DNA from: Saccharopolyspora spinosa NRRL 18395
GTDB taxonomy: Bacteria; Actinomycetota; Actinomycetes; Mycobacteriales; Pseudonocardiaceae
Direction of reading: 5' to 3'
Length of the DNA: 64,000 nucleotides
Assembly (NCBI RefSeq): GCF_000194155.1
Contig: NZ_GL877881.1
Span: 274,611 to 338,610, forward strand
Position numbers and translations under genes: made by a program. This document shows positions 1-21,878 of the stretch, in pieces. The notes under the pieces are model-generated. The model ran no database searches. It had not been told where the DNA came from and saw only the letters and a list, made by a program, of their open reading frames with translations. Position 1 is the stretch's first letter. Every line of letters starts with the position of its first letter.

Positions 1-2233
<2,233 letters not shown>

Positions 2234-5871: not shown

Positions 5872-5960
5872 TGGATCTCTTTCCCGCAGATCGTTCGGAT
5901 GGGACGGGCATGGCGGCGTGGGTTGTCGTGGTGGGAACTGCGGCGATAGAATCACCGAAC

Positions 5961-6015
5961 CGGATAATTATCCGTTTCAGTGCCCGGAAACCACGCTAGC
6001 GGATTCTTATCCGCT
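5961..6015. promoter_or_regulatory. Two palindromic operators in the pao/TetR divergent promoter region
   Basis: Two related palindromes lie in the 239-bp divergent intergenic region: CGGATAATTATCCG (5961-5974, perfect) and AGCGGATTCTTATCCGCT (5998-6015, 7-bp arms around 4 nt). Both share CGGAT-N4-ATCCG, and their centres are 39 bp apart, close to four helical turns. Position and symmetry fit binding sites for the adjacent TetR regulator controlling both directions. Confidence 0.7.
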
Positions 6016-6110
6016 CTGCAACGAGAGCGCTCGCCCGAAGGTTGCCCCAGGTAGAGCGCGGTCGGTGTATTACATTCCGGGGAGGACGCGGCAGCCAACC
6101 GGGAGGGACG

Positions 6111-6698: not shown

Positions 6699-6750
6699 CC
6701 GACCGCGAGCATCCGCTCCCGTCCCGGACACGGCTTGCGATGATCGAGCC

Positions 6751-7332
6751 ATGACTGAAGGAACCGGACGCACCACCGTCCCGAACGGTCCCAACGCGTG
6801 GGACGGCAACGACTACCAGCGGCACTTCGACGCACTGGCCGCTTCCGGGGTGGACGTGCACGGCGAAGCCGACTTCGTCCGCTCCTACTCCCCCGCGAAC
6901 GTCCTCGACGCCGGCTGCGGGACGGGCCGCGTGGCCATCGAACTGGCCCGGCACGGCATCGAGGTCTACGGAACCGACCTCGACAGCTCGATGCTGGCCA
7001 CCGCCCGGCAGCTGGCCCCGGAAATTCGGTGGACCCAGGCCAATCTTGCCGAACTCAACCTCGGGCGGACCTTCGACGTGGTCGTGATGGCCGGAAACGT
7101 ACCGCTGTTCACCCCGGTCGGCACCCAGGAAGCACTCGTGGCGGGCGTGGCCCGCCACGTGCGCCCCGGGGGAAGGCTCATCGCCGGCTTCAGCCTCGAC
7201 CGAGGCTACCGGATCACCGACTACGACGCGCACGCCGCAGCGGCCGGGCTCACGCTGACCGACCGGTTCGCCACGTGGGAACGAGCCACCTTCACCGACG
7301 GCGACTACGCGGTATCGGTCCACACCCGCTGA
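6751..7332 (+). CDS. Class I SAM-dependent methyltransferase
   Basis: A 193-residue Rossmann-fold methyltransferase. Motif I 'VLDAGCGTGRVAIELA' (about residues 51-66), the acidic end of beta-2 ('VYGTDLDSSML'), and 'FDVVVMAGN' for motif II/post-I are all present. It matches the short Methyltransf_25/11 type without a specific substrate domain. It lies 52 bp downstream of the TetR gene on the same strand and may be co-transcribed. Substrate unknown. Confidence 0.85.
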   Translation: MTEGTGRTTVPNGPNAWDGNDYQRHFDALAASGVDVHGEADFVRSYSPANVLDAGCGTGRVAIELARHGIEVYGTDLDSSMLATARQLAPEIRWTQANLAELNLGRTFDVVVMAGNVPLFTPVGTQEALVAGVARHVRPGGRLIAGFSLDRGYRITDYDAHAAAAGLTLTDRFATWERATFTDGDYAVSVHTR

Positions 7333-7350
7333 CCACCGCCACCATCCACC

Positions 7351-7378
7351 GAGCACCGAGCACCGAGCACCGAGCACC
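7351..7378. repeat. Four perfect 7-bp tandem repeats (GAGCACC)
   Basis: GAGCACC occurs four times head to tail directly after the methyltransferase stop, in non-coding DNA. It is a simple slippage-type repeat with no evident function. Confidence 0.9.
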
Positions 7379-7567
7379 GCAACCGTCCACAAGAGACGTT
7401 GAGAGGCAACGTCGGCGAACGTGGGATCCGTCGGGTTGGCAGGTGGCGGTCACGACCATCAGGCTCGACGCGCTCCGCAGTTTTGAAGAAGACAATGCAT
7501 CGGCGATTGCACGGGCCGATCCGCCGCGCTGTGGCGCGGCGGCAGTAGGCTCGTCGACACTCGGGGC

Positions 7568-8074
7568 ATGCACCTGCTGCTGATCGCCGACACTCACCTC
7601 CCGAAACGCGCCAAGGCCCTGCCGGGCGAGGTCTGGGACGCGGTGTCAGCCGCCGACGTCGTCATCCATGCCGGTGACTGGGTCGATGTCGCGCTGCTGG
7701 ACGAGCTGGAGGCGCGCAGCGCGCGGACGATCGGGGTGTATGGCAACAACGACGGCGCACAACTGCGGAACCGGCTTCCCGAGATCGCCCGCGCCGAGCT
7801 GGACGGCGTCCGGCTCGCGGTGATCCACGAGACCGGCCCCGCTCAGGGACGGGAGGCCCGGTGCGACCGGTGGTTCCCGGACACCGATGTGCTCGTGTTC
7901 GGGCACAGCCACATCCCGTGGGACACCACGACGCCCGGCGGTCTCCGACTGCTCAACCCCGGTTCGCCCACCGATCGCCGACGCCAGCCGCACCGCACGT
8001 ACCTGACCGCTGAGATCTCCGGCGAGCAGATCGGCAACGTCGTGCTCCACCGCCTACCGCCGCGCACGGCTTGA
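7568..8074 (+). CDS. Calcineurin-like metallophosphoesterase (YfcE/MJ0936 family)
   Basis: A 168-residue phosphodiesterase with all five metallophosphatase motifs: 'ADTH' (D8, H10), 'HAGDW', 'GNND', a His in 'VIHETG', and 'FGHSHIP', plus the family C-terminal 'LLNPGSPTD'. These small enzymes hydrolyse simple phosphodiesters with two bound metals in the cytosol; the physiological substrate is usually unknown. It stands alone and is convergent with the beta-branching operon, from which it is separated by 247 bp holding no recognisable gene. Confidence 0.9.
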   Translation: MHLLLIADTHLPKRAKALPGEVWDAVSAADVVIHAGDWVDVALLDELEARSARTIGVYGNNDGAQLRNRLPEIARAELDGVRLAVIHETGPAQGREARCDRWFPDTDVLVFGHSHIPWDTTTPGGLRLLNPGSPTDRRRQPHRTYLTAEISGEQIGNVVLHRLPPRTA

Positions 8075-8321
8075 ACGCCCAACGCTGCTCGGATCTCGCA
8101 CCCGGTCGCCGGACTCCGCCGGCGTGTCCTGGGGCGACTTGCGCCGCCCGTCCAGCATCAGCCCCCGCAGATACAAACCCCATTCGCCCGCTGCTCACTA
8201 CGGACGCCGTGATCAATATTCCGATCGTTGACATCTTGACGGTCAGCACAGAGCAGTGCTGCGAGGTCGCCCTCGAAGTAGCTGCTCAGCCAGGCAACTT
8301 CGGCATCCGTTGAAGGGGAAA

Positions 8322-10160
8322 TCATGAGTGCTCTAAATTCGTCTGGTCATCTTCAGATGATTTTCCGAGTGGGCCTGCTACTTCGGGCCAGCAGGCCCTC
8401 CGATCGAACGGGTACGGAACGAGGGCGACACGACGTGGCCGTTGGTCTACCGGCCAGAAGACGGACCAGTCGACCGTGTCTCCCGCCAGCCACCGCTCGG
8501 CCGAATCTATTTCAGCGGCAGGCATGCCAACGTCTCGGAGACGGGTCTGGTTCTCACCTGCGGAGCCCGTGTGAAGCAACGGGTGATCCTTTTCTTGGAC
8601 AAACGCCTGCGCCGCCTCAACGAACTCGTCAGAGTCGTGGGCAGTGATTATTATCCGGCTGTCCAGTTGTTCTCGACCCACGCACAGCGTCCATACAGCC
8701 GCGGCGAAATCGGGAGCTGGGAGGCCGGTAGTGTCATTAGGCGTCCGGTGACCGTGCTGTATAAACGATGCGAGCTTATCGACTAGTCGGGTCAGACTCT
8801 TCGTGGTGCGAGCACTTACCGGGATTGTCCAGCGGGCTTTTCTGGATACGGCTAAGGAGGGGAACAGCGGAGCCTCCTCCAAAACAGCATGCGCATTCGC
8901 GCCGCCCACGCCGAGTGCGGTTACTCCGACCCGTCGTGGCTTGCCGTCGGGCCAAGAGAGAGTCGTCGTAGCAATCTCGACCGGGTGGCGATCGACGGGC
9001 ACATCGCGATGTAGATCGGACACACCAGGCGTCATAGGGATGGTCCGGTATCGCAAAATTTGAATCGCCTTGGCAAGGCTGGCTGATCCCGCTCCGCCCT
9101 CTAGGTGCCCGATATTCGCTTTTGCTGACCCCAGCCAAAGCTTTCCGTCCGGCCCGGCGGCTGTACTGCTGGACGCCCGGGTCAAGTCTCGTAAAGCCTG
9201 AACCTCAATGGGATCACCCTTTGGGGTACCCGCAGCGTGGCACTCCACGTAGCCTAGATCATTAGGCGTCAACCCCGCCTGTGTGAGAGCGCGGTTGATG
9301 AGTTCTCGTTGAGATTCTGGGTCAGATCGGGTCAAACCGCCACGCCGGCCATCATGGTTGACCGAGCTTCCGCGAACAATCGCGAGCACGGGATCGCCGT
9401 CCGCTATTGCGTCATCGAGCAATTTTACGACGAAACAAAATACGCCTTCGCCGCGGACGTAACCGTCCGCGTCCGCACTGAAACACCGAGCCTCGCCGCT
9501 CGGCGTTACAGCACCGAACCGCTGCATGACAGCCTGCATATGCCCGTGAAGATAGACGTTAGGACTGCCAACGAGTGCCATGCGGAACTCGCCCGCCCGC
9601 AGGCCCGACACTGCCTGACTCAGTGCCGTCAGCCCACCGGCACAAGCAGTGTCGAGAGTGATGCTGGGTCCACGTAGGTCGAAATGATGCGAGATCCTGG
9701 CGGAGACAAAGGTAAGGAGCAGCCCGACAGCGCTGTAGCGGTCGACCACGTGCCGAAAAGCCATGCGGTCACGCATGTCTGAGCAAGTGGTCGATACAAA
9801 AACCCCGACATCCTCGCCGGCGAGGGACCGGGGCGGGATCCCCGCGGATTCCAGGGCCTGCCAAGCTGCTTCCAGCATCAGCCTCTGCTGAGGATCCATC
9901 CACACCGCCATCCGGTACGTGATACCGAAGAGGGCGGGCTCAAACCCAACTACATCCGAAAAGAATGAAACCGTAGGTTCCTCAATGTCCCCGATATCGG
10001 CGCGGTAGTCGTCCAAGCGACCCGCAGGCGGATGTGACATGGTCCGCTTGCCACACGCGAACAAGTCCCAGAATTCGTCAGCGTCGTCCGCGCCAGGAAC
10101 CCGCGCCGACATCCCGATTACAGCCACCGGCGCCTGCCGCCGCACGCCGTCCGGGCTCAT
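8322..10160 (-). CDS. Single polyketide ketosynthase with C-terminal linker/docking region (KS-LD)
   Basis: A 612-residue stand-alone type I ketosynthase. The catalytic triad is complete: C173 in DTACAGG, H308 in 'ECHAAGTPKGDP', H352 in 'AKANIGHLEGGAG'. After the KS (about residue 430) comes a linker ending near residue 595 in 'RRVALVPYPFDRRACW'. This is the post-AT-type linker that flanks trans-AT KS domains, with no AT, reductive or carrier domain. The family's 'P-x-E-A' region before MDPQQR is altered (ITYRMAVW). It overlaps the trans-AT gene by 4 bp and is last in the left operon. It would perform the single extension giving the beta-ketoacyl-ACP substrate of the HMGS. Its chain specificity is unknown. 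Confidence 0.88.
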   Translation of the reverse strand: MSPDGVRRQAPVAVIGMSARVPGADDADEFWDLFACGKRTMSHPPAGRLDDYRADIGDIEEPTVSFFSDVVGFEPALFGITYRMAVWMDPQQRLMLEAAWQALESAGIPPRSLAGEDVGVFVSTTCSDMRDRMAFRHVVDRYSAVGLLLTFVSARISHHFDLRGPSITLDTACAGGLTALSQAVSGLRAGEFRMALVGSPNVYLHGHMQAVMQRFGAVTPSGEARCFSADADGYVRGEGVFCFVVKLLDDAIADGDPVLAIVRGSSVNHDGRRGGLTRSDPESQRELINRALTQAGLTPNDLGYVECHAAGTPKGDPIEVQALRDLTRASSSTAAGPDGKLWLGSAKANIGHLEGGAGSASLAKAIQILRYRTIPMTPGVSDLHRDVPVDRHPVEIATTTLSWPDGKPRRVGVTALGVGGANAHAVLEEAPLFPSLAVSRKARWTIPVSARTTKSLTRLVDKLASFIQHGHRTPNDTTGLPAPDFAAAVWTLCVGREQLDSRIIITAHDSDEFVEAAQAFVQEKDHPLLHTGSAGENQTRLRDVGMPAAEIDSAERWLAGDTVDWSVFWPVDQRPRRVALVPYPFDRRACWPEVAGPLGKSSEDDQTNLEHS

Positions 10161-11047
10161 GACTTTGCCCTCGCGATCTGTGCCCGGCTAACACCAGGAA
10201 TCTGGACGAGCATACGAGCAAGTACCTGACTATTTCCAGGCTGCAGGAACCGAATATCGGGATACTGACTTGCCACCCAGCTCACTGATTCGTGCCAGCG
10301 CACTGGCTTGACCAAATGAGCGACCAATATATCGGCGATCTCAGAGACGATATGAGGACGAGCTGTTACGTTAGCTACCACTGGGATAACTGGCGGACTC
10401 GGCACGAAGCTGGCGATAGCCTTCGCGAACCGTTCAGACGCCTGAAGCATATGCCTGCTGTGGAAGGCGCCAGTGACCCGAAGGCGTCTTACATCAATTG
10501 CCTTCAGGCTATGCATAATGGCTTCTGCTTTGACCATTTCGCTCGCCGTGCCAGCTAGAACGATCTGTTTCGGCGTATTTATGTTGGCTATTTCCACCGC
10601 ATTCAGATCGGCGTCGAGCAACGCTGCTCTTATGACCTGCTCATCAATGCCGACTACCGCTACCATGACTCCATCAGCGTACTCACTTGTAATGGAGGCG
10701 CGGATCCGGACCATTTCAAGAGCGGTGCGGAAGTCAAAAACGCCGGCGGCTTCAAGAGCGTTGTATTCGCCGAGACTGTGCCCCAAAACCACATCGGGTG
10801 CGAAGCCTTGCTCGCGTACTGCTCGCAGGGCAAATGCATTCAAGATATAAGTGATAGGCTGAGCGTATTGAGTTTGCGAAAGTGTCTCCTGATCGGCGCC
10901 CGCGCAGAACTCGGGCACGTCATAGCCGAGCGCCTCCGATGCGACATTCGTCAGATCGTGATACCGAAAGAGAAGTTCGAATCCCTCCTGTGCCTTCAGG
11001 ACTCCTTGCCCGGGAAAGAGTAAGGCGACATTCGTCGAATCGATCAT
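10157..11047 (-). CDS. Discrete (trans-acting) malonyl-type acyltransferase
   Basis: A 296-residue FabD/trans-AT protein. The nucleophile S91 lies in GHSLGEY, catalytic H196 in 'GAFHSRHM', and the N-terminal 'LLFPGQG' forms the oxyanion region. GAFHS is the signature usually associated with malonyl specificity. It overlaps neighbours on both sides (ATGA). It would charge the two separate carrier proteins of this cassette with malonyl, for the extension and for the donor ACP. Confidence 0.9.
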   Translation of the reverse strand: MIDSTNVALLFPGQGVLKAQEGFELLFRYHDLTNVASEALGYDVPEFCAGADQETLSQTQYAQPITYILNAFALRAVREQGFAPDVVLGHSLGEYNALEAAGVFDFRTALEMVRIRASITSEYADGVMVAVVGIDEQVIRAALLDADLNAVEIANINTPKQIVLAGTASEMVKAEAIMHSLKAIDVRRLRVTGAFHSRHMLQASERFAKAIASFVPSPPVIPVVANVTARPHIVSEIADILVAHLVKPVRWHESVSWVASQYPDIRFLQPGNSQVLARMLVQIPGVSRAQIARAKS

Positions 11048-11820
11048 TGAGTCGAACTCCGAAGCACGCCGTAGCTTTGCTGTGCCAGTCCTGCGACTTC
11101 CGGAAGCGTTCGCGAGCGCATATGCGGGTCAAGTTCGCGTTGCATTGCGGCATCGGACGCTTCAAGGCATTTGCGGGACAACTCTTCCTTGAGTAATTCC
11201 AGGCTTGCACGAGGCGCACGTGCGATCATCAAGGCGATGTTCCTGGCCTCTGCGGGTACCTGATCATGTGGCACTACCGTGGGCCCACAGCCGCGTTGCT
11301 TTAGCTCGCGCCCTCGATAACCTCGAGCTGTCAGCAGCATCTCCGTTCCCAGCGTCTCCCCAAGTTTTGCTGGGACTACATACGTTGCGCCGACGTAGGG
11401 GGCAATCCCATACTGCATAAAGTTCGCTGCATAGTAAGACCGTTCACTCAGCACTACCACATCAGCATATAAGCCGAGTACGAGTCCGCCGCCGAGAGCG
11501 TGGCCTTGCATCTCTGCCACAACCGGCAATGGGCAACTGGCGAACACTCGCGCGAAGCGTCGATACTCGTCCAATGGCAGGCCATCTGCAATGCCAACTA
11601 GGGTGTCTCTAGTTGCGCCTGCGCAGAAGATATCCGGCATTCCTGCAGCGACGACAACACGCGTTTGGTCATCTGCTGTCGCGGCTTGAACTGCGGCAAG
11701 AAGATTGTCAAGCCATTCGCGGCGAAACGTATTTCCTTGCTCCCGATCAGCGAAACGGACGATCGCCAGTGGACTTTCCAGCTTCACGGAAATCGGCCCG
11801 AAATCCATATCTTTCTTCAC
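11044..11820 (-). CDS. Enoyl-CoA hydratase-like decarboxylase ECH2 (PksI/MupK/CurF-ECH2 type)
   Basis: A 258-residue crotonase-fold protein with a GTG start overlapping the preceding stop (GTGA). The stretch 'YYAANFMQYGIAPYVGAT' and 'AMQGHALGGGLVLGLYAD' is the hallmark of ECH2 proteins of beta-branching cassettes such as PksI. These decarboxylate 3-methylglutaconyl-ACP to the beta-methyl alkene. The oxyanion region is preserved. It lies directly after the ECH1 gene, the order known from characterised cassettes. Confidence 0.88.
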   Translation of the reverse strand: MKKDMDFGPISVKLESPLAIVRFADREQGNTFRREWLDNLLAAVQAATADDQTRVVVAAGMPDIFCAGATRDTLVGIADGLPLDEYRRFARVFASCPLPVVAEMQGHALGGGLVLGLYADVVVLSERSYYAANFMQYGIAPYVGATYVVPAKLGETLGTEMLLTARGYRGRELKQRGCGPTVVPHDQVPAEARNIALMIARAPRASLELLKEELSRKCLEASDAAMQRELDPHMRSRTLPEVAGLAQQSYGVLRSSTQ

Positions 11821-12563
11821 AGCATGCCCTTCGCGGCGAACGAGTTGATGCTGGCAACAACATCAGGTTGGTTGACGCGAGCACCAAAGACGCGTTCGGC
11901 GAGTTTCGCGTACCTGTTATCTACTGGGAAGAGCACACGATGCGCTTCCTTCAGGTCTGCAATGGTGTCGCGTTCAGAGCGACGCAGTGCGAGCAAAATA
12001 GGGCGCACAGCAGCGCGAGGATCCTCAACGACCTGATCGGCCCAGCCTGTTTTGACCGCGTCGTGGGCGCTGACTTCCTCGGCAAGAATTGCCGTTCTTA
12101 GTGCGCGGTGTTCCCCGAGCCTGCGGGCTATTGCCGGCATAATGATAGTCGGCAACATACCGAAACAGACCTCGGTGAGGCGGAACGAAGCCTCAGGCCC
12201 AGCAACAACTATGTCGCACGCGGCGGCCAGCCCGGCACCGCCGCCGATAGCTTGCTTCTCGACCACGGCGATTGTTACCACTGGCGTCGTCGCGAGCCGA
12301 TCAAGCAAACGCGAAAACTTAGCTGCGGCCTCGCCGCCCGGACTTTGCGCGAACTCTTTCAGATCAGCACCGGAGCAAAAGTCGTTTCCTGCTGCGGTCA
12401 GCACGAACGCCCGACAGTCTGCGTCGGTCTCGGCTTTGTCGAGCGCAGCGGTCAACTGGTCGACGACCTCCGCGGTGAGGCGGTTCGCTAGCGTCGGTGA
12501 AGCGAGTTCGACGACCAGGTGCGCTGGTTTCGACGTTACTGTCAAGACTTGACTGACTGCCAC
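11817..12563 (-). CDS. Enoyl-CoA hydratase-like dehydratase ECH1 (PksH/CurE type)
   Basis: A 248-residue crotonase-fold protein. The GTG start follows GGAGGAATC. 'CSGADLKEFA', 'GGGAGLAAACDIVVAGPEASF' and 'EVCFGMLPTIIMPAIARRLG' match the ECH1 dehydratases that convert HMG-ACP to 3-methylglutaconyl-ACP. It overlaps the HMGS C-terminal codons by 22 bp, so translation is coupled. A second ECH1-like gene at 17240-17986 is its closest relative in the window (shared FGMLPTI and RS-RDTIA motifs). Confidence 0.88.
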   Translation of the reverse strand: MAVSQVLTVTSKPAHLVVELASPTLANRLTAEVVDQLTAALDKAETDADCRAFVLTAAGNDFCSGADLKEFAQSPGGEAAAKFSRLLDRLATTPVVTIAVVEKQAIGGGAGLAAACDIVVAGPEASFRLTEVCFGMLPTIIMPAIARRLGEHRALRTAILAEEVSAHDAVKTGWADQVVEDPRAAVRPILLALRRSERDTIADLKEAHRVLFPVDNRYAKLAERVFGARVNQPDVVASINSFAAKGML

Positions 12564-13885
12564 GATTCCTCCGTGGTTCTGCTCCTGGGTAGGCTCGGCG
12601 CCGGTGTGCGACGAGACCTGTCAACAGTGGACCGCGGGACTGGCAGGCTAGGAACGCCGCGGTACCAGCGGTAATCCCGGTGGTACTCATCGATCCTATC
12701 GAGGAGCAGAAGTGGTCCCGCAGGCAATGCGTTAGTCAAGAGGTCCATGTAATTGTGCACCTGGGGCTCTGAGTACCGAGTGCCAAACACTGTCTTGCTT
12801 GCGCTATCCAGGATGTCGTCATAGCGGCTAGGTGCTACACGAGTCCGTACATCAAGAGCGCTGTCTAGTCCTTGCATAGCTGCAAGTGCAGAATGGCCGG
12901 GTGAGACAGTGAGTCCGAGGAACTCCGAGGAACATCCACCACCATAAGAGTAGATACCTAGTTCATATCTTCCGTTATCCGGGTAGTGCCTTAGAGAGCT
13001 GGTCAGGGCCATCAGCGTACAACCCGCATAGATGTTGCCGACCTGCCGTGGGACCTCCAAGGAAGGAGTTACCCGCTGGCCGAAATCTTCATCGGCGAGC
13101 GAAGGCTTGAGCCCAACTAGCTTACGCAACGCCGTTCGATGTGCGCCTTTCACCATTCCAGGAAAGGGTGTGTGCATGGCTAGCGCATCGAAGCTCTTTT
13201 CGAAATCTTGCCCGGTGTTGTCTGCGTAGCATTGAAAGGAGCCGAGTAGGCAGTCAATGTATGACATGATTGATAGATCGACGTTGATTAGATCTACGTC
13301 GATCTTGGGGCGCGAAAAGTCGTCGTTGTCGAAACTAAAGGAGCCGTACGAATATGGATTCCATGTTGCAATACGCGGATCGCCGAGGAGTAGCGCTACG
13401 GCCCCTGCGCCCTGACTGGGCTCAGCCATGCTACCTCGAAGTGGCACGGGTAGGTCTCCGGCGATGACCAGCGCTTTTGCGCCTTCCCTGCCCGCTGTTA
13501 GCGATCCGGCAACCATCTGTAGTGCGGCTACACCACCGTGGCAAGCCTGTTTTACTTCAAAGACCCTGCACGTCCGGGGTAGCCCTAGTAGCCGGTGCAC
13601 CGTGGCCGCAGCGGATTTAGCGAGGTCGATTCCGCTTTCGGTTGCGACTGCCAGGGTCTCGATTTGTGCGACTTCGTCTTCGTGTAACCGCTCGAGCACC
13701 GGGCGTGCGGCGTTGACCGCAAATGTGACGATGTCCTCACAGGGAAGAGCTACGCTCTTGCGGTACATCATCAAGTTACCCATGCGAGTGGTGTCGAGGT
13801 TTCGCGCTTCGAAAAGTTCCTCAACGTCCACGTAAACGGACCCGAAGTACGCGCCAAAATCCTCGATACCAATAGTTCTAGCCAC
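12542..13885 (-). CDS. HMG-CoA synthase-like enzyme for polyketide beta-branching (PksG/MupH type)
   Basis: A 447-residue HMG-CoA synthase family protein. Catalytic residues are visible: E83 in 'ATESGID', C115 in 'EVKQACHGG', H238 in 'AMHTPFPGM'. The length and the 'VFEVKQACHGG' form match the ACP-dependent HMGS of beta-branching cassettes rather than the mevalonate enzyme. It would condense acetyl-S-ACP (donor) with a beta-ketoacyl-ACP to give an HMG-type ACP thioester. GTG start behind AAAGGGG. The last ~25 residues run into ECH1 and look unconserved. Confidence 0.92.
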   Translation of the reverse strand: MARTIGIEDFGAYFGSVYVDVEELFEARNLDTTRMGNLMMYRKSVALPCEDIVTFAVNAARPVLERLHEDEVAQIETLAVATESGIDLAKSAAATVHRLLGLPRTCRVFEVKQACHGGVAALQMVAGSLTAGREGAKALVIAGDLPVPLRGSMAEPSQGAGAVALLLGDPRIATWNPYSYGSFSFDNDDFSRPKIDVDLINVDLSIMSYIDCLLGSFQCYADNTGQDFEKSFDALAMHTPFPGMVKGAHRTALRKLVGLKPSLADEDFGQRVTPSLEVPRQVGNIYAGCTLMALTSSLRHYPDNGRYELGIYSYGGGCSSEFLGLTVSPGHSALAAMQGLDSALDVRTRVAPSRYDDILDSASKTVFGTRYSEPQVHNYMDLLTNALPAGPLLLLDRIDEYHRDYRWYRGVPSLPVPRSTVDRSRRTPAPSLPRSRTTEESWQSVKS

Positions 13886-13934
13886 GACGAGAGGCCCCTT
13901 TCAGGAGATTGGCGCCAGGCTTGTTAATGTGCGA

Positions 13935-14228
13935 TCACGCACTCTTCGAAGTGGCGTCTGCGGTCATCGAAGTGGCGTCTGCAGTCAAGTATTCGGCAAG
14001 TTTCGGAACCGTCGGATTATCGTAAATGTCTTCCAGGGTGAGATCTCTTCCGAACTCACCGCGAAGATTCTCAACAAATTCGACTGCAAGGATAGAATCC
14101 AGGCCGATGTCAGCGAATTTGCGTTCATCGATTTCTTCGGCGTCGACCAGCAGGAGGTTCGACAGTATACCCACGATCGCACTACTAGCGTTTTCGGTAA
14201 TTGTGCTCGGCGAGTCCTGGTTGTGCAT
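13935..14228 (-). CDS. Acyl carrier protein, probable acceptor ACP of the beta-branch
   Basis: A 97-residue free-standing PKS-type ACP. The phosphopantetheine site is S45 in 'GLDSILAVEF'. Helix III 'IYDNPTVPKLAEYL' resembles ACPs that accept beta-branching. These typically carry a flag Trp six residues after the Ser; here it is F51. GAGG ribosome site upstream. The C-terminal tail is a repeated heptad from a 21-bp tandem duplication (13946-13987). It is first in the left operon, 49 bp before HMGS. Confidence 0.88.
   Translation of the reverse strand: MHNQDSPSTITENASSAIVGILSNLLLVDAEEIDERKFADIGLDSILAVEFVENLRGEFGRDLTLEDIYDNPTVPKLAEYLTADATSMTADATSKSA
13946..13987. repeat. 21-bp tandem duplication in the ACP 3' end
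   Basis: Two 21-bp units (13946-13966 and 13967-13987) differ at one base. They add seven codons in frame to the disordered tail after the last ACP helix, so function should be unaffected. Confidence 0.9.
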
Positions 14229-14346
14229 AATCAGCCTCGTAGCAGTGTTAGGCGGGAGATAATTCGCGGGGCGGCAAGTTGCCGTCGAAACGGCAATTTA
14301 GCAACACCGTAGGCAACGTGATGCACACTACGCAATACTCCATTCG

Positions 14347-14507
14347 GGTGACCAGGGGGGCCTGGGTGGCCCACGTGACCAGGGATGCTGGGGTTGCCTG
14401 GGTGCCCAGGGTGCCCTGCGCGGGTGGCCGGCGTGGCCAGGGGGGCCTGCGTGGGTTGCCCGCGTGACCAGGGTGTCCTGCGCGCCCAGGGTTGCCTGCG
14501 TGACCTG
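14347..14507. repeat. 9-bp degenerate tandem array between the divergent beta-branching operons
   Basis: About 16 imperfect copies of a 9-bp unit of form (G/C)GTG-NCC(A/T)G. Examples: GGTGACCAG, GGGGGCCTG, CGTGACCAG, GGTTGCCTG, GGTGCCCAG, with runs such as 14463-14507 perfectly in 9-bp register and one or two spacers. It fills the middle of the 351-bp divergent region and is much GC-richer than the flanking island genes. Read on the minus strand it would encode a Gly-X-Pro collagen-like stretch in a 97-codon TTG-started frame ending 2 bp before the ACP. I regard it as non-coding, possibly an array of binding sites. Confidence 0.8.
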
Positions 14508-14540
14508 CTGTGTCTTACGATCAAACTATTCGGACGTCTG

Positions 14541-14572
14541 TTGACTTTATAAGCAAAAAGTTATGATCGGAG
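14541..14572 (+). promoter_or_regulatory. Probable promoter and ribosome site of the right-hand operon
   Basis: TTGACT (14541-14546) and TATGAT (14562-14567) with a 15-bp spacer lie just upstream of the P450 start at 14580; GGAG (14569-14572) is 7 bp before that ATG. The spacer is shorter than optimal. If this promoter is used the leader is only a few bases and the GGAG would be at or before the transcript start. Confidence 0.45.
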
Positions 14573-14579
14573 ATCGCCC

Positions 14580-15806
14580 ATGCCGCTGTGCTGCGGCGAA
14601 TGCGCCGACGTTGTCGAAGATTTCGGTTCTGTCACGCTGTACGAACGTGGCCACCCATATGACGTTTTGGCGCGTCTGAGAGACGCGGGACCAGTGCACA
14701 AGTTGTCATCCGCCGCTCTCGGGCATGACTTCTGGGGCGTCTTCACGGCTAGTGAGGCACAGCAAGTACTGGTTGACGATGATACCTTTCTATCTGGCTA
14801 TGGCGTCTTTCCGTGGAACGGCGTGCATAATCCAGATCCGTTGCGAGGAAGCATTGTAATCGCGTCCGACGGCGACCACCGCAAGACTACTCGAACCGTG
14901 ATGAACGGCTTGTTCACCAATGGTGCTGTTGCCGCGAGGAAGTCCCGGCTTGCTGCGGTGATCGAGAAGCCGGTTCTAACGCGTGTCAACAATGGCGTGT
15001 TTGATTTTGGTACCGAGATTGCCTGGCCGGCGGCTATGCGGATCATGAGCGATCTCGCAGGAACGGGATCGGGGTACACGGACCAACTCGGGCCACACGT
15101 CCTCGGTGTCCTCGGCAACATGGCACCGGAGATAGCACAAGATCGTCAAGAGGCCAGCACGTCTTATGCGGCTGTGGCGGCTATTCTCGATGAGGCGATT
15201 GGAAGCCAGGATAAGCTAGCGCCGGACAACCTTATCGGACGGTTGGAGACAGCTCGTCTTAGTGGTGAGCTGTCTCGGCGAGACGTTCTGGCGAATTTGA
15301 TCGCGACTATCGTCGGCGGTACCGAGGCGCCGCGGCTGGTACTCACAAGTGTGGCCGTGCTCCTCGCGCGTGAACCAATGTGGCTGGAAGCCGTGTCCAG
15401 TGGACGTGTGACGTTGCCGGGTCTTGTGACCGAGTTGCTTCGCTGGACCTCCCCAACCACCATGATCGGCAGGACGGTTGCAAAACGTGTCCGGCTGGGA
15501 GGCGTTGACCTTCTTCCAGGAGAGACCGTCAGGATCATGGTTGGCGCCGTTTGCCGTGATCCTGCATGGTATCCCGATCCGGATGTGTTCAACCCGTCGA
15601 GGCCGAATCGGAGCGGGCTTGTCTTCGGACATGGCCCGCACCGTTGCATCGGTGCGGCGGTAGCCCGTGAGCAAATTGCAATTCTGGTGGATTTACTCGT
15701 GCGTGAACGACTGGTCGTTGAACTGGCCGGGCAGCCGACATTGTCACAATCTAATGCTTTCGTTGGACATCTTTGTGCACCAGTGCGCGTGATACGAAAG
15801 AATTGA
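14580..15806 (+). CDS. Cytochrome P450 with atypical I-helix
   Basis: A 408-residue bacterial P450. The haem-thiolate loop 'FGHGPHRCIGAAVAR' (Cys near residue 355) and K-helix 'ELLRW' are canonical. The I-helix reads 'VGGTEAPR' where most P450s have (A/G)Gx(D/E)TT. The oxygen-activating Thr is replaced by Ala and the next residue by Pro, a change also known from some substrate-assisted P450s (EryF has Ala). It heads the right operon, 13 bp before the donor ACP. It probably oxidises an ACP-bound or released product of the cassette (inference). Confidence 0.92.
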   Translation: MPLCCGECADVVEDFGSVTLYERGHPYDVLARLRDAGPVHKLSSAALGHDFWGVFTASEAQQVLVDDDTFLSGYGVFPWNGVHNPDPLRGSIVIASDGDHRKTTRTVMNGLFTNGAVAARKSRLAAVIEKPVLTRVNNGVFDFGTEIAWPAAMRIMSDLAGTGSGYTDQLGPHVLGVLGNMAPEIAQDRQEASTSYAAVAAILDEAIGSQDKLAPDNLIGRLETARLSGELSRRDVLANLIATIVGGTEAPRLVLTSVAVLLAREPMWLEAVSSGRVTLPGLVTELLRWTSPTTMIGRTVAKRVRLGGVDLLPGETVRIMVGAVCRDPAWYPDPDVFNPSRPNRSGLVFGHGPHRCIGAAVAREQIAILVDLLVRERLVVELAGQPTLSQSNAFVGHLCAPVRVIRKN

Positions 15807-15819
15807 GAAAGGCAATTTA

Positions 15820-16062
15820 ATGACCGAAGAAAATCTTTTGGAGGCGGTGCGTGATGCAATCCTGCGAACGCTGCCGGAACTCGACCCTGAAGTAATCACG
15901 CCTGACTCCACGCTGTCCGGCCTGGGCGCGAACTCGCTTGACCGAGTCGACATCCTGATGGATGTGAACGAAGCACTTGGTTGTGCGCTGACCTCCCAGG
16001 ACCTGACGGCTGGTGCAAACCTGCGGGCGCTTGTTGCCGCGTTGCACGAGCACGTACGATGA
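15820..16062 (+). CDS. Donor acyl carrier protein (AcpK/CurB type)
   Basis: An 80-residue ACP. 'LGANSLDRVDILMDVNEALG' with S39 as attachment site matches the donor ACPs of beta-branching cassettes (AcpK, CurB), which have L-G-A-[ND]-S-x-D-R instead of the module-type G-L-D-S-L. It would carry malonyl, then acetyl after decarboxylation by the adjacent KS, and hand acetyl to HMGS. Its stop overlaps the next ATG (ATGA at 16059). Confidence 0.9.
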   Translation: MTEENLLEAVRDAILRTLPELDPEVITPDSTLSGLGANSLDRVDILMDVNEALGCALTSQDLTAGANLRALVAALHEHVR

Positions 16063-17240
16063 AAATAGCTATTACTGGAGCGTCGGTTCTCAGCGGTCTC
16101 GCCGACGGCTTGGACGAGTTCACGACACTCTTGAGCACTGGGCGGTCTTGTACCGCTAATACGATGGGGACCTTCTCTTTGCGAGAGTGGTCGCAGCGCT
16201 GGCTTCGCGATGACGCGAAGACGATCGGAGCGTTGACGAGTTCCGCAGGACGCGCGGCCTTACCTGCTAAGACGGCCGCATGCGTAGCGGTGGCCGCCAC
16301 TCGCATGGCGGGGTGGAGTGAGGCTGAGTGTGATGAGGCTGGGCTGCTGGTTGCTGGTAACAACCTCGCTATGGCATATCAGGCCGAAGCACATTCTCAC
16401 TATCTGCATGGACGATTCCGTGCTGGACATATCGTGAACTATCTGGATACAGACGCAGTGGGGACGGTCAGTCAGACACTGGGGATACGAGGCGAAGGCT
16501 GGAATGTAGGTGCTGCCTCTGCGAGCGGTGCTGTTGCTGTCGTTCAAGCCGCGAGGCTTATAGAGCAGGGTGAGGTGAAACGCTGTCTCGTAGTTGCGCC
16601 AGCGGTAGAGCTATCTCCGATGGAGACGGCCTCGTTCACTGTTGCTGGCGCAATGGCGGGCGATTCGACCGATTTTTGTCGGCCGTTTGATCGAGAGCGA
16701 TGCGGTTTTGTATTCGGGCAAACCGCGGCAGCGGTCACATTGGAACGTGCCGACCTGACGGTTGACCGGGCTTTGGCGCACATAGTCGGATACGGCCAGC
16801 GGCTCGATGGTTACCGGGGCTCGGAGCCGCACGCCGATGGGCAAGTGGCGGCAATGCGCACAGCTCTCGCGAGGGCTGATGTGATTCCAGCTGAAATCGA
16901 CTTGGTCAGCGCGCATGCTACTGGATCGAAGCGGGGTGACCCGACTGAAGCGGCCGCATTGGCTGAGGTGTTCGAGGAGTCGCAGCCGGTCATTAACGCA
17001 ACTAAGGCTATAACAGGGCACGCTTTGAGCGCTGCTGGCATGCTGTCGTTAATCGCGGTGATCCAGCAGATGCGTCGTGGTTTCGTGCATGGAAATCCTC
17101 TTCTTCAGAATCCAATTGGGCCGCCATTAGCCCACGTTGGCCCAGATAAAGTCGATGCCAATATTCGTTTGTCGCTGTGTAATAGTTTTGCTTTTAGTGG
17201 TATCAATGCCAGTTTGCTGGTCGCGTCGGGAGATGCGTAA
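16059..17240 (+). CDS. Decarboxylase-type ketosynthase (Cys to Ser) of the beta-branching cassette
   Basis: A 393-residue free-standing KS starting at ATG 16059. The nucleophile position reads A-A-S154-A-S-G in place of A-C-A-S-G, while both catalytic histidines remain ('SAHATGSKRGDP' and 'TKAITGHALSAAG'). This is the known signature of the KS that decarboxylates malonyl-S-ACP to acetyl-S-ACP without condensing. It sits between donor ACP and an ECH, as in characterised cassettes, and its TAA overlaps the next ATG (TAATG). Confidence 0.92.
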   Translation: MKIAITGASVLSGLADGLDEFTTLLSTGRSCTANTMGTFSLREWSQRWLRDDAKTIGALTSSAGRAALPAKTAACVAVAATRMAGWSEAECDEAGLLVAGNNLAMAYQAEAHSHYLHGRFRAGHIVNYLDTDAVGTVSQTLGIRGEGWNVGAASASGAVAVVQAARLIEQGEVKRCLVVAPAVELSPMETASFTVAGAMAGDSTDFCRPFDRERCGFVFGQTAAAVTLERADLTVDRALAHIVGYGQRLDGYRGSEPHADGQVAAMRTALARADVIPAEIDLVSAHATGSKRGDPTEAAALAEVFEESQPVINATKAITGHALSAAGMLSLIAVIQQMRRGFVHGNPLLQNPIGPPLAHVGPDKVDANIRLSLCNSFAFSGINASLLVASGDA

Positions 17241-17986
17241 TGCCTGCCGAAGGGTTCGTCACAGTCACGCGTGACGAAGGAAGCACGATTGCCGAATTGA
17301 ATCGTCCAGACGAGGGAAACATTCTCACGCTCGAGATGCTTGACGCTTTGTCCACGGCGTTGCATGAGGCTGAGCATGACCCGAACTGCTCGGCGTTCGT
17401 ACTTTGTGCGGCCGGCGATAGCTTCTGCATGGGTGACGATTTGCGGAAATTGGCCAGTGAGAATATTGACGTGTTCCTAAGTTCCTATTGGCGGTTTGTG
17501 GCTAACTTGGCTAGCGCGGCAGTTCCCACGGTAGCCGTTGTGACTGGGCCGGCCGTTGGCGGCGGCGTTGGACTAACGGCAGCTTGCGATATAGCTATTT
17601 GTGGCCCAAAGGCAACATTTCAGTTGCCAGAAGTATTCTTTGGCATGCTGCCAACGATCTTGCTGCCGCCCCTCGCTTGGAGAATTGGCCCGCAGCGCGC
17701 GTTAAGGCTGGCCGCACTGGGTGAAATAGTGAGCGCCGAGATGGCGCCTGAACTGGGTCTGGTGGATCTGCTCAGTTCAAATCCTGTGGCGGCTAAACGT
17801 GAGGTGCTTGAAGTTTTGCACCGTTCGGATAGGGATACTATAGCGGTAGTCAAGCGTATACATCGAGCCGAGTTCTCTCTCGATACTTGGTTCAAAGAAT
17901 ATCGCAAGCTACTGTTGGATGTGCGCTGGAATGATCCAAAGGTGGTTGATCGAGTTCAGCGCATGATCAGAGAAGGCGTACTGTAG
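17240..17986 (+). CDS. Second ECH1-like crotonase-fold protein
   Basis: A 248-residue crotonase-fold protein, same length as the ECH1 at 11817-12563 and clearly its paralogue: 'GGGVGLTAACDIAICGP', 'LPEVFFGMLPTILLPPLAWRIG', then 'RSDRDTIAVVKRIHR'. The residue pattern is dehydratase-like (ECH1), not ECH2. 'CMGDDLRKLA' replaces the usual C-x-GAD-L-K, so one oxyanion-hole residue differs. Known cassettes need one ECH1 and one ECH2; this third enzyme may act as isomerase, as hydratase on a later step, or as a partner subunit (inference). Confidence 0.85.
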   Translation: MPAEGFVTVTRDEGSTIAELNRPDEGNILTLEMLDALSTALHEAEHDPNCSAFVLCAAGDSFCMGDDLRKLASENIDVFLSSYWRFVANLASAAVPTVAVVTGPAVGGGVGLTAACDIAICGPKATFQLPEVFFGMLPTILLPPLAWRIGPQRALRLAALGEIVSAEMAPELGLVDLLSSNPVAAKREVLEVLHRSDRDTIAVVKRIHRAEFSLDTWFKEYRKLLLDVRWNDPKVVDRVQRMIREGVL

Positions 17987-18018
17987 AGATATGACACTCG
18001 CTAATTAAGGAATTTGAC

Positions 18019-19215
18019 ATGATAGAGGAGCTTGGAAAAGATTTCGTCAAAGATCCGCATAAGTACTACGAGCGGATGCGTTTATCTGGTCCGGTTTCTG
18101 AAGTTGTGCTTCCGCGCGGCCTTAAGGTTTGGATAGTAACGGGGAGTGCCGAGGCACGTTCGGTATTAATGGACCGAAGGTTGTGTAAGGATATTTGGTT
18201 CGGGACGGCGTTCGCCGGAAAGCATCTGCGTCCCAATGCGGTTCGTACTGCATGGCATCCTGATCTTGTTCGGTACAATCTACTTAACGTCGATCCTCCC
18301 GTGCATAGCCGACTGCGTCGCGCAATGGCGCGGGCACTTGACGCTGATTTGCTGAATCGGGTTGGCGAGCGTGTTGAAGTGACCACGAATGAGCTCGCAA
18401 GTAGGGTTCCGGTGGGTGAAACCATTGATCTAGTCGAGGCATTCGCTGCGCCGCTGGCATTCTCAGGCGTAGCCGAGTTGGTTGGAATCCCAGAACCTAA
18501 TCGTGAAGATGTGCATCGATGGACGATCCCATTGGTTTACTTTAGACCCGCCGAGGAGGTTTCAGAAGGTGGCGAGAATCTACTAGCACTCTTGAGGGGC
18601 CTGCTGGAGGATAGGCGAAGCCAACCTGGAGATGATCTCTTGTCTCGGCTAGCCCATCCGTCTGATCCCTCTGATGTGCTTAGTGATCAGGAATTAATTT
18701 CGCTGGTCAGCAACATGGTGATGGCAGGTTATGAAACAACCCAGCAGTTGATTTCCGTGGGTGTTCTCGGACTTATTGAACACCCTGAACAGCTGGCGAT
18801 CTTGCGTAGCGATCCGACCCGGGTTCCGAAGGCGTTAGACGAACTTCTGCGATGGGTGAGCCCTGCTCCTTTCAGCACGCCAAGATACACTACGGAAGAG
18901 ATCGAAATTGGTGGCGTGCGGGTGCCGAGAGGTGAGATTGTGCTCGTCGCTGTGGATGCAGTCAATCATGATCCCGAAGTTCGGTCTTGTCCACATGCGA
19001 TTGATTTCGATAGTTCACCCACGCATATCGCTTTCGGGCGAGGTATTCACTTTTGCGCTGGTGCTTCGTTGGCGCGCATGCAAGGAGAGTTGGCGTTTGC
19101 TGCGCTTCTTGAGCATTTCAAAGAATGGGAATTGATTTCCACCGTTGAAGATCTTGAATGGACACACACGCATATCACTAGAAGTCTTGAAAGTTTGCTG
19201 GTGCGACTGTCGTGA
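18019..19215 (+). CDS. Cytochrome P450 (CYP107-like, canonical)
   Basis: A 398-residue P450 with a canonical I-helix 'MAGYETT', K-helix 'ELLRW', and haem loop 'FGRGIHFCAGASLAR' (Cys near residue 344). It is last in the right operon, 32 bp after the ECH. The gene uses TTA leucine codons (for example 18082-18084) and has low third-position GC, which differs from the surrounding chromosome. Together with the first P450 it suggests two oxidations of the beta-branched acyl product. Confidence 0.92.
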   Translation: MIEELGKDFVKDPHKYYERMRLSGPVSEVVLPRGLKVWIVTGSAEARSVLMDRRLCKDIWFGTAFAGKHLRPNAVRTAWHPDLVRYNLLNVDPPVHSRLRRAMARALDADLLNRVGERVEVTTNELASRVPVGETIDLVEAFAAPLAFSGVAELVGIPEPNREDVHRWTIPLVYFRPAEEVSEGGENLLALLRGLLEDRRSQPGDDLLSRLAHPSDPSDVLSDQELISLVSNMVMAGYETTQQLISVGVLGLIEHPEQLAILRSDPTRVPKALDELLRWVSPAPFSTPRYTTEEIEIGGVRVPRGEIVLVAVDAVNHDPEVRSCPHAIDFDSSPTHIAFGRGIHFCAGASLARMQGELAFAALLEHFKEWELISTVEDLEWTHTHITRSLESLLVRLS

Positions 19216-19543
19216 AACACTGCGTTGTGGCGCTTGTGCCTTTCAGTATTTCGGCCCATTAAGACGTGCACATTAGTTGCCGCAGCGCAGTCCACACCAG
19301 ACTATTCACCCGGCAAACCGCACAAATGGTGGGCTGTTCCTGGACTTCAGTTCCAGTGGCAACACCGCCTTCCGCACAGCAGCCGACGTCCGAGGTTGAT
19401 TCGACGGGGCTCCGCGACCGGTGCTCGGCGGCCGCGCCGAGAGCCACGGTTGAACCGGTCCTAGGGCGGGTACGGCATCGGCAACGGCCTGTTCACCCCA
19501 CGTGACCGGCCCGGTCAGTACGTGCTGCCAACGGGAAGCGGAA
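19216..19543. other. Non-coding right border of the low-GC island
   Basis: 328 bp in which base composition returns from the island to the GC-rich chromosome. I see no gene, tRNA, inverted repeat or integrase site here. Confidence 0.6.
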
Positions 19544-20677
19544 ATGGTCAGGCCAGGCGATCAGCCAACCCTGCTCACCCTGGGAGTCGAGGAGGAATTC
19601 CTCCTCGTGGACCCGGAGACCTTGCAGCCTGCGGGCAGCGGGGTGGCTGTTTCGCGCGTCCGGCACGGCGGCGATGAAGGTGAGGTGCACCCCGAGTTGG
19701 CTCCCGCCCAGATCGAGGCGGCGAGCTCGGTGTGCCGCGACCTCCACGAACTGCGCCGGACGTTGATCCAGCTGCGCATGGAGCTCGCCACCGCCGCCGC
19801 CGAGCACGGCTGGCGACTGGCCGCCATCGGGGCGGCGCCGACCGGGCAGCCAGGGCCACCGCCGGTCACCGACACGCCCCGATACCGGCGGATATACGCC
19901 GAGTACGGCCCGATCGTCGAGGAGCAAGGGGTGTGCGGGTGCCACGTGCACGTGGGCACTCCGGACCTGGAATCGTCACTGCGCGCGAGCAACTGGCTGC
20001 GCCCGTGGCTGCCGGCCCTTCTGCTGGTCACCACGAATTCGCCGTTCTACCGCGGTGTCGACACCGGCTACGCGAGCTGGCGCTTCGCCCTGTGGTCCCG
20101 GTTGCCGACCGCGCGCCCGGCGCCCCACGTCACCTCGGTGGCTCACTACCGCGGCATCCTCGACTGTCTCCTGGCATCCGGCATGGTGATCGACCCCGGC
20201 ATGCTCTACTGGTACGCGCGACCTTCCGCGCACGTGCCGACCCTGGAGGTTCGGGTCGCCGACGCCGCCGCGACCGTGGACGAGGCCGTGCTGCTCGCCG
20301 GGCTCACCCGCGCATCGGTGACCGCCGCGCTCGCACCGGACGACCGGCTGCGCGGCCCCGAAAACGTCGATGACCAGATGCTGTGGGCCGCGTGCTGGCG
20401 TGCCGCTCGGGACGGGCTCGAGGGAGATGCCCTGGACGCCACCACCGGTCGGCTGATCCCCGCCTGGCAACTTCTGACCGGTCTGGTCGAACACCTGCGC
20501 CCGGTGCTCGAAGACAACGGCGATCTCGAGTTGGTCACCCAGCTGTTGCAGACCTTGCGGGCGCGCGGCAGCGCCGCGAGCCGCCAGCGTTCGGTGTACG
20601 GCCGGCGCTTCGACATCAGGGATGTCGTCGACCACGCCGTGACCGAGACGTGCCGCACCCGAGCCTCAAGGCCCTGA
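19544..20677 (+). CDS. Glutamate-cysteine ligase-like carboxylate-amine ligase (YbdK/GCS2 family)
   Basis: A 377-residue GCS2-family ATP-dependent carboxylate-amine ligase. 'TLGVEEEFLLVD' opens the fold, followed by 'ELAPAQIEAAS' and 'GCHVHVG' with metal-binding residues, and 'YWYARPSAHVPTLEVRVAD' near residue 225. ATG 19544 is chosen because the family motif begins within 12 residues and a purine-rich GGAAGCGGAA precedes it; a GTG at 19502 is possible. In actinomycetes such paralogues often make gamma-glutamyl amides of unknown partner, whereas EgtA/GshA are distinct. Substrate not predictable. Confidence 0.85.
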   Translation: MVRPGDQPTLLTLGVEEEFLLVDPETLQPAGSGVAVSRVRHGGDEGEVHPELAPAQIEAASSVCRDLHELRRTLIQLRMELATAAAEHGWRLAAIGAAPTGQPGPPPVTDTPRYRRIYAEYGPIVEEQGVCGCHVHVGTPDLESSLRASNWLRPWLPALLLVTTNSPFYRGVDTGYASWRFALWSRLPTARPAPHVTSVAHYRGILDCLLASGMVIDPGMLYWYARPSAHVPTLEVRVADAAATVDEAVLLAGLTRASVTAALAPDDRLRGPENVDDQMLWAACWRAARDGLEGDALDATTGRLIPAWQLLTGLVEHLRPVLEDNGDLELVTQLLQTLRARGSAASRQRSVYGRRFDIRDVVDHAVTETCRTRASRP

Positions 20678-20774
20678 ACAGCCATTTCGACTTCGCTCCC
20701 GGTGGGGGGCGGATCACGTGTTTTCGGCGGATCTTCCGGGTAAGTCCCGGTATATGACTCGGACAGGAGATGCC

Positions 20775-21878
20775 ATGAGGACACCACTGCACGCCTTGGC
20801 AGAGCATGGACAGAGCCCCTGGGTCGACTACTTGTCCCGGCGGTTCGTCCGCGACGGTGACTTGGCCGAGCTCGTGGAGCGGGGACTGGCCGGGGTGACG
20901 TCGAATCCCACGATCTTCCAGGGCGCCATCGCGGAAGGCGACTACTACGATGACCAGCTCCGCGAGGTGCTGGCCACGGAGACCGACCCCAAGGAGGTCT
21001 TCCTGGCCATCGCGCGCGAGGACATCCGGTACGCGTGCGACGTGCTCCGCCCGGTCTTCGACCGCAGCAAGGACACCCGGGACGGATGGGTCTCCTTGGA
21101 AGTCGATCCGCAACTGGCGAACGACACGCAGGCCACCATCGACGAGGCCGCTCGCCTGCACCGGATGATCGATCGCCCGAATCTGTTCGTGAAGATCCCC
21201 GGTACGCAGGCCGGCCTGCCGGCGATCGAGGAAACGATCGCCAGCGGGATCCCGGTCAACGTGACGCTGCTGTTCTCCCTGGAGCGGCACCGCAGCGCCG
21301 CCGAGGCTTACTTGCGGGGGTTGCGGCGACTCCGCGACAACGGCGGGGACCTGCGGTCGGTGACGTCCGTGGCGTCGTTCTTCGTCTCGCGGGTGGATAC
21401 CGAAGCCGACCGCCGACTGGACGCGATCGGTGGGCACGACGAGATCAAGGGCACCCTCGCTATCGCGAACGCCAAACTCGCTTACCGGACCTACGAGGAG
21501 TTGTTCACAGGTGCCGACTGGGAGGAACTCGCGGCGGCCGGCGCGAGCCCGCAGCGCTGCCTCTGGGCCTCCACTTCGACCAAGAACCCGCAGTACAGCG
21601 ACGTTCTCTACGTCGAAGAGCTCATCGGTCCCCAGACGGTGAACACCATGACGAGGGAGACGCTGCAGGACTTCCAGGACCACGGGCGCGTCGCGTACAC
21701 GCTGGAGCGCGATGTGGACGAGGCCCGCCGCACCTTCGACCGGTTCGCCGCTGCTGGTGTCGACTACGACGACGTGACCGCCGTGCTGGAACGCGAAGGA
21801 GTGGACAAGTTCGCCGCCTCGTTCCAGAAATTGTTCGACGAGATCACGCACAAACGCGACCAACTGGTGCGGACGTGA
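20775..21878 (+). CDS. tal: Transaldolase
   Basis: A 367-residue transaldolase of the long actinobacterial type. It transfers a dihydroxyacetone unit between sedoheptulose-7-phosphate and glyceraldehyde-3-phosphate in the pentose phosphate pathway. 'GVTSNPTIFQGAI' and 'NLFVKIPGTQAG' (Schiff-base Lys) and 'CLWASTSTKNPQYSD' are diagnostic. ATG 20775 is preceded by AGGAGA with 4-bp spacing, favouring it over upstream in-frame starts. The gluconate permease follows on the same strand, consistent with gluconate feeding the pentose phosphate pathway. Confidence 0.95.
   Translation: MRTPLHALAEHGQSPWVDYLSRRFVRDGDLAELVERGLAGVTSNPTIFQGAIAEGDYYDDQLREVLATETDPKEVFLAIAREDIRYACDVLRPVFDRSKDTRDGWVSLEVDPQLANDTQATIDEAARLHRMIDRPNLFVKIPGTQAGLPAIEETIASGIPVNVTLLFSLERHRSAAEAYLRGLRRLRDNGGDLRSVTSVASFFVSRVDTEADRRLDAIGGHDEIKGTLAIANAKLAYRTYEELFTGADWEELAAAGASPQRCLWASTSTKNPQYSDVLYVEELIGPQTVNTMTRETLQDFQDHGRVAYTLERDVDEARRTFDRFAAAGVDYDDVTAVLEREGVDKFAASFQKLFDEITHKRDQLVRT

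Follow-up and report, generated by a model that had tools for sequence, protein, structure and literature searches.

A predicted module-free beta-branching pathway of discrete proteins on an imported block in Saccharopolyspora spinosa

In Saccharopolyspora spinosa NRRL 18395, a window of 64,000 nucleotides (the whole stretch of DNA analysed here, positions 274,611 to 338,610 of contig NZ_GL877881.1) holds a predicted polyketide beta-branching cassette of eleven protein genes, arranged in two divergent operons (Table 1). Read from the middle outwards, the minus-strand operon comprises the genes of an acceptor acyl carrier protein (ACPa), 3-hydroxy-3-methylglutaryl-ACP synthase (HMGS; HMG for the acyl group below), the ECH1-type crotonase ECHb, the ECH2-type crotonase ECHa, an acyltransferase (AT) and a ketosynthase (KS), and the plus-strand operon those of cytochrome P450a, a donor ACP (ACPd), a KS with serine in the active site (Ser-KS), a second ECH1-like protein (ECHc) and cytochrome P450b. 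The reading frames of all eleven genes are open, and the most likely start of the Ser-KS is 16059 rather than 15981, where the longer open reading frame begins. The initial annotation of this DNA had described two divergent operons with an HMGS cassette, a KS, an AT, an acceptor ACP and two P450s, and every gene that it named was found where it had been placed. Its crotonase inventory was right for ECH1 and ECH2 but incomplete, as ECHc had been overlooked. It had also presented the cassette as standing alone, without polyketide synthase (PKS) modules, in agreement with which no KS gene longer than 800 amino acids (aa) was called in the whole window. Of the features of a multimodular trans-AT PKS, the discrete AT is present, while no multi-module megasynthase was found in the 64 kb; nor is there the KS plus chain-length factor of a type II (aromatic) PKS, the locus having one condensing KS and a second KS of the Ser-decarboxylase type. 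Thioesterase, transporter and regulator genes were not recognised within the cassette block, and two matches to the phosphopantetheinyl transferase family lie elsewhere in the genome.

Table 1. Predicted features of the cassette and of the block that carries it (window positions)
Feature	Position	Strand	Basis
Discrete ketosynthase (KS), 612 aa, PKS-type C-terminal linker	8322..10160	-	Pfam PF00109/PF02801/PF22336; active-site alignment; KS trees
Discrete acyltransferase (AT)	10157..11047	-	PF00698; TIGR00128 228 bits, under cut-off 260.9; motifs GHSLG / GAFHS
ECHa, ECH2-type decarboxylase, PksI/CurF-like	11044..11820	-	NF005496 above cut-off; PksI alignment 155 bits
ECHb, ECH1-type dehydratase, VirD-like	11817..12563	-	8AHQ 153.7 bits, alignment
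HMGS (HMG-ACP synthase homologue)	12542..13885	-	Matches 8s81, CurD, PksG; active-site alignment
Acceptor ACP (ACPa), S45	13935..14228	-	PF00550; ACP alignment
Cytochrome P450a	14580..15806	+	PF00067; group I alignment
Donor ACP (ACPd), LGANSLDR, S39	15820..16062	+	PF00550; best NCBIfam PRK07117 46.8 bits, cut-off 79; alignment
Ser-KS, condensation-inactive, malonyl-ACP decarboxylase type	16059..17240	+	PRK07103 337 bits, cut-off 445; active-site alignment
ECHc, second ECH1-like crotonase	17240..17986	+	VirD match, alignment; distribution
Cytochrome P450b, CYP107-like (EryF/PikC kin)	18019..19215	+	52% ortholog in G016
Imported block	8087..19347		blastn against sister G381; GC, GC3

Judged from sequence, the set of cassette enzymes is complete, with the expected active-site residues. 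The active site of the KS is intact (C173, H308 and H352), and the AT carries two motifs, GHSLG and GAFHS, that we take to mark a malonyl-type enzyme. HMGS gives E values of 2e-85 with CurD and 1e-84 with PksG, and its catalytic E83, C115 and H238 are intact in the window as in each of the 16 loci compared. In the Ser-KS of the window, serine replaces the cysteine and both histidines are retained, and the donor ACP is present as a discrete protein. Among the scanned proteins, ECH2 alone exceeded the curated NCBIfam threshold of a beta-branching-type model, with 252.8 bits where 215 are required; HMGS, Ser-KS, AT, ECH1 and the donor ACP remained under the cut-offs of their best models. The assignment of the cassette is not due to chance, given the strong matches of HMGS, ECH1 and ECH2 and the presence of this set of genes in further genomes. 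At the position of the beta-branching Trp flag, which was placed by a spacing that we assume to be the usual one, ACPa has Phe51 in the ACP alignment. The acceptor domains ACP5a and ACP5b of the virginiamycin (Vir) system also have Phe at the flag position (PMC10006238).

With regard to the crotonases, ECHa matches PksI at 2e-44, and its H233 aligns with His230, to which a catalytic role in PksI is assigned (PMC7501309). The closest PDB chain to ECHb is VirD (8AHQ, the deposition named in PMC10006238), at 6e-44, and E131 and R128 of ECHb fall at VirD E128 and R125 by our own matching of the numbering, with an offset of four. ECHc is 43% identical to ECHb and retains E131, with Gln128 at the position of VirD R125.

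The eleven-gene block is an import that probably came in as a unit. Its GC content is 0.571, compared with 0.689 and 0.676 in the two adjoining stretches of 5 kb, and GC at third codon positions (GC3) is 0.49-0.64 in the cassette genes against 0.86-0.92 in four flanking genes. In a blastn comparison, the same-genus genome G381 aligns with window positions 1-8086 and 19348-27444, in segments that are 93.8-96.6% identical and leave small gaps; where the window has the 11.26 kb between them, G381 carries 1.9 kb of different sequence. The absence of the block from G381 between flanks of 94-97% identity, together with its GC content of 57%, makes it probable that the eleven genes arrived together. 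The block has no clear terminal repeat, as 7980-8400 and 19180-19560 share one direct match of 10 bases and no inverted one, and a search of the window for tRNA genes gave none. In the other three hosts of the closest relatives (group I below), the GC content of the cassette is near that of its surroundings. A short repeat at window positions 55049-55163 also occurs within the 1.9 kb of G381 that takes the place of the cassette.

The cassette recurs in other actinomycetes. The searches score few candidates per genome (six in the ECH2-based survey of group I, three in the KS survey), and some members may thus have been missed. The KS query gave matches at E <= 1e-95 in 39 of 390 Pseudonocardiaceae genomes. 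Fourteen inspected matches are discrete KS genes, all of them within HMGS cassettes; the remaining ones sit in open frames of at least 819 aa, of which the two inspected (G182 and G057) are the first KSs of virginiamycin-like PKSs. The 14 family loci, one locus of Catellatospora coxensis and two Streptomyces plasmids make up 17 cassettes with a related discrete KS, and 15 of these show no KS gene longer than 800 aa in the 16-64 kb fetched around them, where genes were predicted with a home-made caller that missed some, e.g., the Saccharothrix AT; the Catellatospora and Lentzea loci sit at contig ends. Homologous cassettes do not always adjoin a multimodular PKS; had they done so, this would have counted against the initial annotation. 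HMGS relatives were found in 21 of 200 family genomes at E <= 1e-20 and in five of 394 genomes of the class at E <= 1e-60.

According to gene content, the module-free minimal set is not confined to the window locus and occurs in several subtypes. Group I, delimited by at least 76% identity of ECH2, was found in four of the 390 family genomes, these being the window's own, G016, Saccharothrix algeriensis and Lentzea jiangxiensis, and all four loci carry P450a. The window KS is 64-68% and P450a 48-60% identical to the counterparts in the three other genera, while a separate ortholog of ECHc was called in none of the three other loci. Group II consists of eight loci (L060 at 2946-16170, L037, L038, L039, L041, L045, L085 and L135) with an HMGS cassette and no large PKS gene. 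By eye, all eight have a KAS III-like gene and a thiamine diphosphate (ThDP)-type gene, an aminotransferase gene was seen in seven (all but L045) and a HemN-like radical S-adenosylmethionine (SAM) gene in six (all but L045 and L135), and a P450 gene is present in most. Pfam supports KAS III, ThDP and the aminotransferase in L060 and L135, KAS III and ThDP in L045, and radical SAM in L060, L041 and L085. In group III (G263 and G388), an LnmK-family protein stands in place of the Ser-KS (scanned in G263, seen by eye in G388), accompanied by a pair of FabF-type proteins with Cys in one active site and Gln in the other, which we take as the mark of a type II KS/chain-length-factor pair. Among 22 genomes of the genus, group I was found in the window's genome only, group II in two and group III in one. 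Beside the three groups stand the Catellatospora locus and a version on a plasmid of S. globisporus. This plasmid (1.05 Mb) has a module-free cassette with a P450, a medium-chain and a short-chain dehydrogenase/reductase (MDR and SDR) among transposase-like genes (L090:14437-25613), and the entire record contains a single KS place at E <= 1e-40.

The group III combination of an LnmK-family HMGS cassette, a discrete KS of the window clade and the Cys/Gln FabF-type pair, at L133:7943-18525 and L134:9830-19506, possibly serves beta-alkylation on a type II PKS. In G232 (L084:4866-14510), HMGS, ECH1, ECH2, a donor and an acceptor ACP and an LnmK-family protein lie beside FabF-type KSs and an MDR-like reductase, and no KS of the window clade was seen there. 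The LnmK-family scores are 266 bits in G263 and 256 bits in G232 (cut-off 100).

P450a retains the heme ligand Cys356. In its I-helix motif, Ala takes the place of the usual Thr in every member of group I (GGTVAP in Lentzea, GGTEAP in the other three), which may point to unusual handling of oxygen or to help from the substrate; EryF and OleT offer parallels for such an unusual I-helix. The four proteins also share an invariant CCxxC cluster at the N-terminus (C4, C5 and C8). The AlphaFold model of P450a is poor, with a mean predicted local distance difference test score (pLDDT) of 65.3. The idea that P450a is recognisable as a P450 acting on carrier proteins was kept as a weak one, as the best single-sequence match is 3mgx, which we take to be OxyD, but a profile search ranks CYP125-type chains first.

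In regard to the ancestry of the KS, a tree of 50 rows separates the 17 discrete KSs and three first KSs of assembly lines from 30 other KSs with a split support of 100/99, and a tree of 43 rows agrees with this split. Weak matches and domains matching fewer than 300 model positions are omitted from the trees, the midpoint root serves the drawing only, and L091 and L135 have long branches. Each of the three first KSs (L089, L136 and L137) is preceded by lipoyl and 2-oxoacid-dehydrogenase-acyltransferase domains, and thus receives a starter directly. The corresponding PKSs are called virginiamycin-like partly by gene content, i.e., a ThDP enzyme and ScbA/ScbR-type regulators, and partly on a resemblance that we presume. 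The starter of virginiamycin is isobutyryl. Such a placement fits discrete KSs that would perform the first extension on a short starter. We dropped the idea that the window KS is specially tied to the final KS of 7zma (496 bits), the score being the sum of two domains (241 + 251 bits). Outside the cassette KS clade, as one of the 30 other KSs, the window's own genome has a second discrete PKS-type KS of 591 aa, together with KAS III-like and ACP-like genes (L092:7801-10844).

We propose, with a probability of roughly 60%, that these discrete proteins form a self-contained pathway, moved horizontally, which leads to a short beta-methyl-branched acyl-ACP. The AT would load malonyl onto ACPa and ACPd, and the Ser-KS would decarboxylate malonyl-ACPd to acetyl-ACPd. 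The discrete KS would join a short starter, most likely acetyl from acetyl-ACPd or acetyl-coenzyme A (CoA), with malonyl-ACPa, giving acetoacetyl-ACPa, to which HMGS would transfer the acetyl group of ACPd. From the resulting HMG-ACPa, ECH1 would take off water and ECH2 carbon dioxide, so that 3-methylcrotonyl-ACPa (C5) is formed. P450a, and possibly P450b as well, would then oxidise the chain, perhaps still on ACPa. As no thioesterase was recognised, the product could be released by self-lactonisation or to some acceptor. We infer here the starter, the single extension, the size of the product, the role of ECHc, the site and order of P450 action and the release. A methylbutenolide formed by lactonisation of a gamma-hydroxy product is possible but unsupported, and would explain the missing thioesterase.

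Several observations weigh against this proposal, and some of them feed two other explanations. First, the KS could be iterative, or its starter longer or branched, in which case the product would be larger than C5 and perhaps repeatedly beta-methylated. The nearest assembly-line KSs are first KSs that follow a loading region of the branched-acyl type, and, as they presumably take a branched starter, acetyl is not supported over other starters. The suggestion of the initial annotation that the KS extends a short starter is partly supported by a clade that includes starter-accepting first KSs, but its choice of acetyl gains nothing from the tree. In addition, G016 and Lentzea of group I carry a KAS III, and the Lentzea cassette sits in a larger cluster with two further discrete KSs, an AMP-binding enzyme, a glycosyltransferase, a MaoC-like and carboxyltransferase genes; the added KAS III and, in Lentzea, the further biosynthetic genes suggest that these two cassettes may feed a longer pathway. 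On the other hand, the window cassette shows no recognisable ketoreductase, dehydratase domain, loading enzyme or chain-length factor, and we regard an iterative KS or a different starter as rather unlikely here.

Alternatively, the cassette could act in trans, either beta-methylating a chain on another PKS or nonribosomal peptide synthetase of the genome or supplying it with a starter. Many modular PKS genes elsewhere in the genome could take up the product, the biosynthetic genes around the Lentzea cassette could be read in the same manner, and both exceptions among the 17 loci have a KS megagene at hand. In G016, an AT-less KS-ACP-aminotransferase-luciferase-condensation-adenylation gene (L079:1004-8587) lies about 16 kb from the cassette, beyond other genes, and in YIM 121038, a one-module cis-AT PKS adjoins it. 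However, the window cassette owns its KS, AT and discrete acceptor ACP and was imported as a block, and the other 15 loci have no large KS gene in the fetched DNA. Furthermore, 28 of 30 PKS-type KS matches in the genome, one of the 30 being the cassette KS, have an AT match within about 2 kb (the 30 were drawn from 46 by dropping FabF-like and weak ones), and this pairing means that no AT-less module array was seen in the genome. Of the two without a nearby AT, the match at C2:820945 borders a 1.6 kb run of N and that at C2:2223049 is a discrete KS. Action in trans thus seems improbable to us.

The least convincing explanation, a non-functional remnant of a larger trans-AT PKS cluster stripped of its modules, could appeal to the low GC content of the imported block and to the eroded-looking Saccharothrix version, but with all eleven frames open, the checked residues intact, KS and P450a conserved across three other genera and the module-free set recurring, we consider it very unlikely. 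Departures among the relatives nevertheless count against the proposed pathway. In the Saccharothrix member, which looks incomplete, the AT seems degenerate and a KS of the Cys type stands in for the Ser-KS. YIM 121038 deviates at two catalytic positions, with Thr at the Ser position of the Ser-KS and the ECH2 His not aligned.

The closest known systems differ from the self-contained pathway proposed here. In the myxobacterial HMG-CoA route to isovaleryl-CoA, an HMG intermediate is likewise converted to a 3-methylcrotonyl thioester. That route is CoA-based, whereas the chain of the window would be ACP-bound and built from malonate. Among beta-branching systems, the virginiamycin M cassette (VirC-E) of an actinomycete shares with the window an ECH1 whose closest PDB chain is VirD, an ACP with Phe for Trp at the flag and a KS clade that includes virginiamycin-like first KSs, but there module 5 of a multimodular PKS-NRPS contains the acceptor ACP as one of its domains (PMC10006238), in contrast to the small separate KS, AT and acceptor ACP found here without a megasynthase. 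The bacillaene (Pks/Bae) and curacin/jamaicamide systems have the same five activities, with HMGS resembling PksG and CurD and ECH2 resembling PksI and CurF, yet the chains that they modify sit on tandem ACP domains within modular PKSs (PMC3252866, PMC10006238). Likewise, the haliangicin hli cluster includes a beta-methyl cassette with HMGS, ACP and ECH genes that works after module 2 of a type I PKS (PMC4768178). The leinamycin type, with LnmK as the donor, resembles the relatives in G263, G232 and G388, where an LnmK-family protein lies beside HMGS, ECH1 and ECH2, and differs from the window, which has a Ser-KS decarboxylase and no PKS modules. Where HMGS cassettes are mentioned in the excerpts of PMC7501309, PMC4768178, PMC3252866, PMC11425284 and PMC11907408, they work on modular PKSs, and no module-free one was found in the open-access literature (PMC listings), subscription papers being outside the scope.

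If the proposed pathway is real, a methyl-branched small acid would be made from malonate by separate proteins, whereas such work is commonly described as an auxiliary step on giant polyketide assembly lines. A set of small proteins with its own KS, AT and acceptor ACP, moving as a block and recurring without modules, would then represent a new pathway class, and a compact system for rebuilding beta-branching and the choice of the acceptor ACP in vitro without megasynthases. How a cassette picks its acceptor ACP is an open question (PMC10006238). Tentatively, and at somewhat less than even odds, the discrete-KS clade and its HMGS cassettes could form a mobile, module-free branch that turns malonate into C5-like beta-branched acyl-ACPs, an ACP counterpart of the early mevalonate route, with a P450 subtype, a ThDP/aminotransferase/radical SAM subtype and an LnmK subtype with a type II KS/chain-length-factor pair; in the window, the P450 without the I-helix Thr would act on the ACP-bound chain.

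Around the block, genes named by eye are metallophosphoesterase-like, methyltransferase-like and TetR-like on the left-hand side and glutamate-cysteine-ligase-like and transaldolase-like on the right-hand side. About 49 kb upstream (contig 221-234 kb, L051:6124-18509) lie genes resembling a polyunsaturated fatty acid synthase, with two large KS genes seen by eye, which were judged to be outside the cassette.

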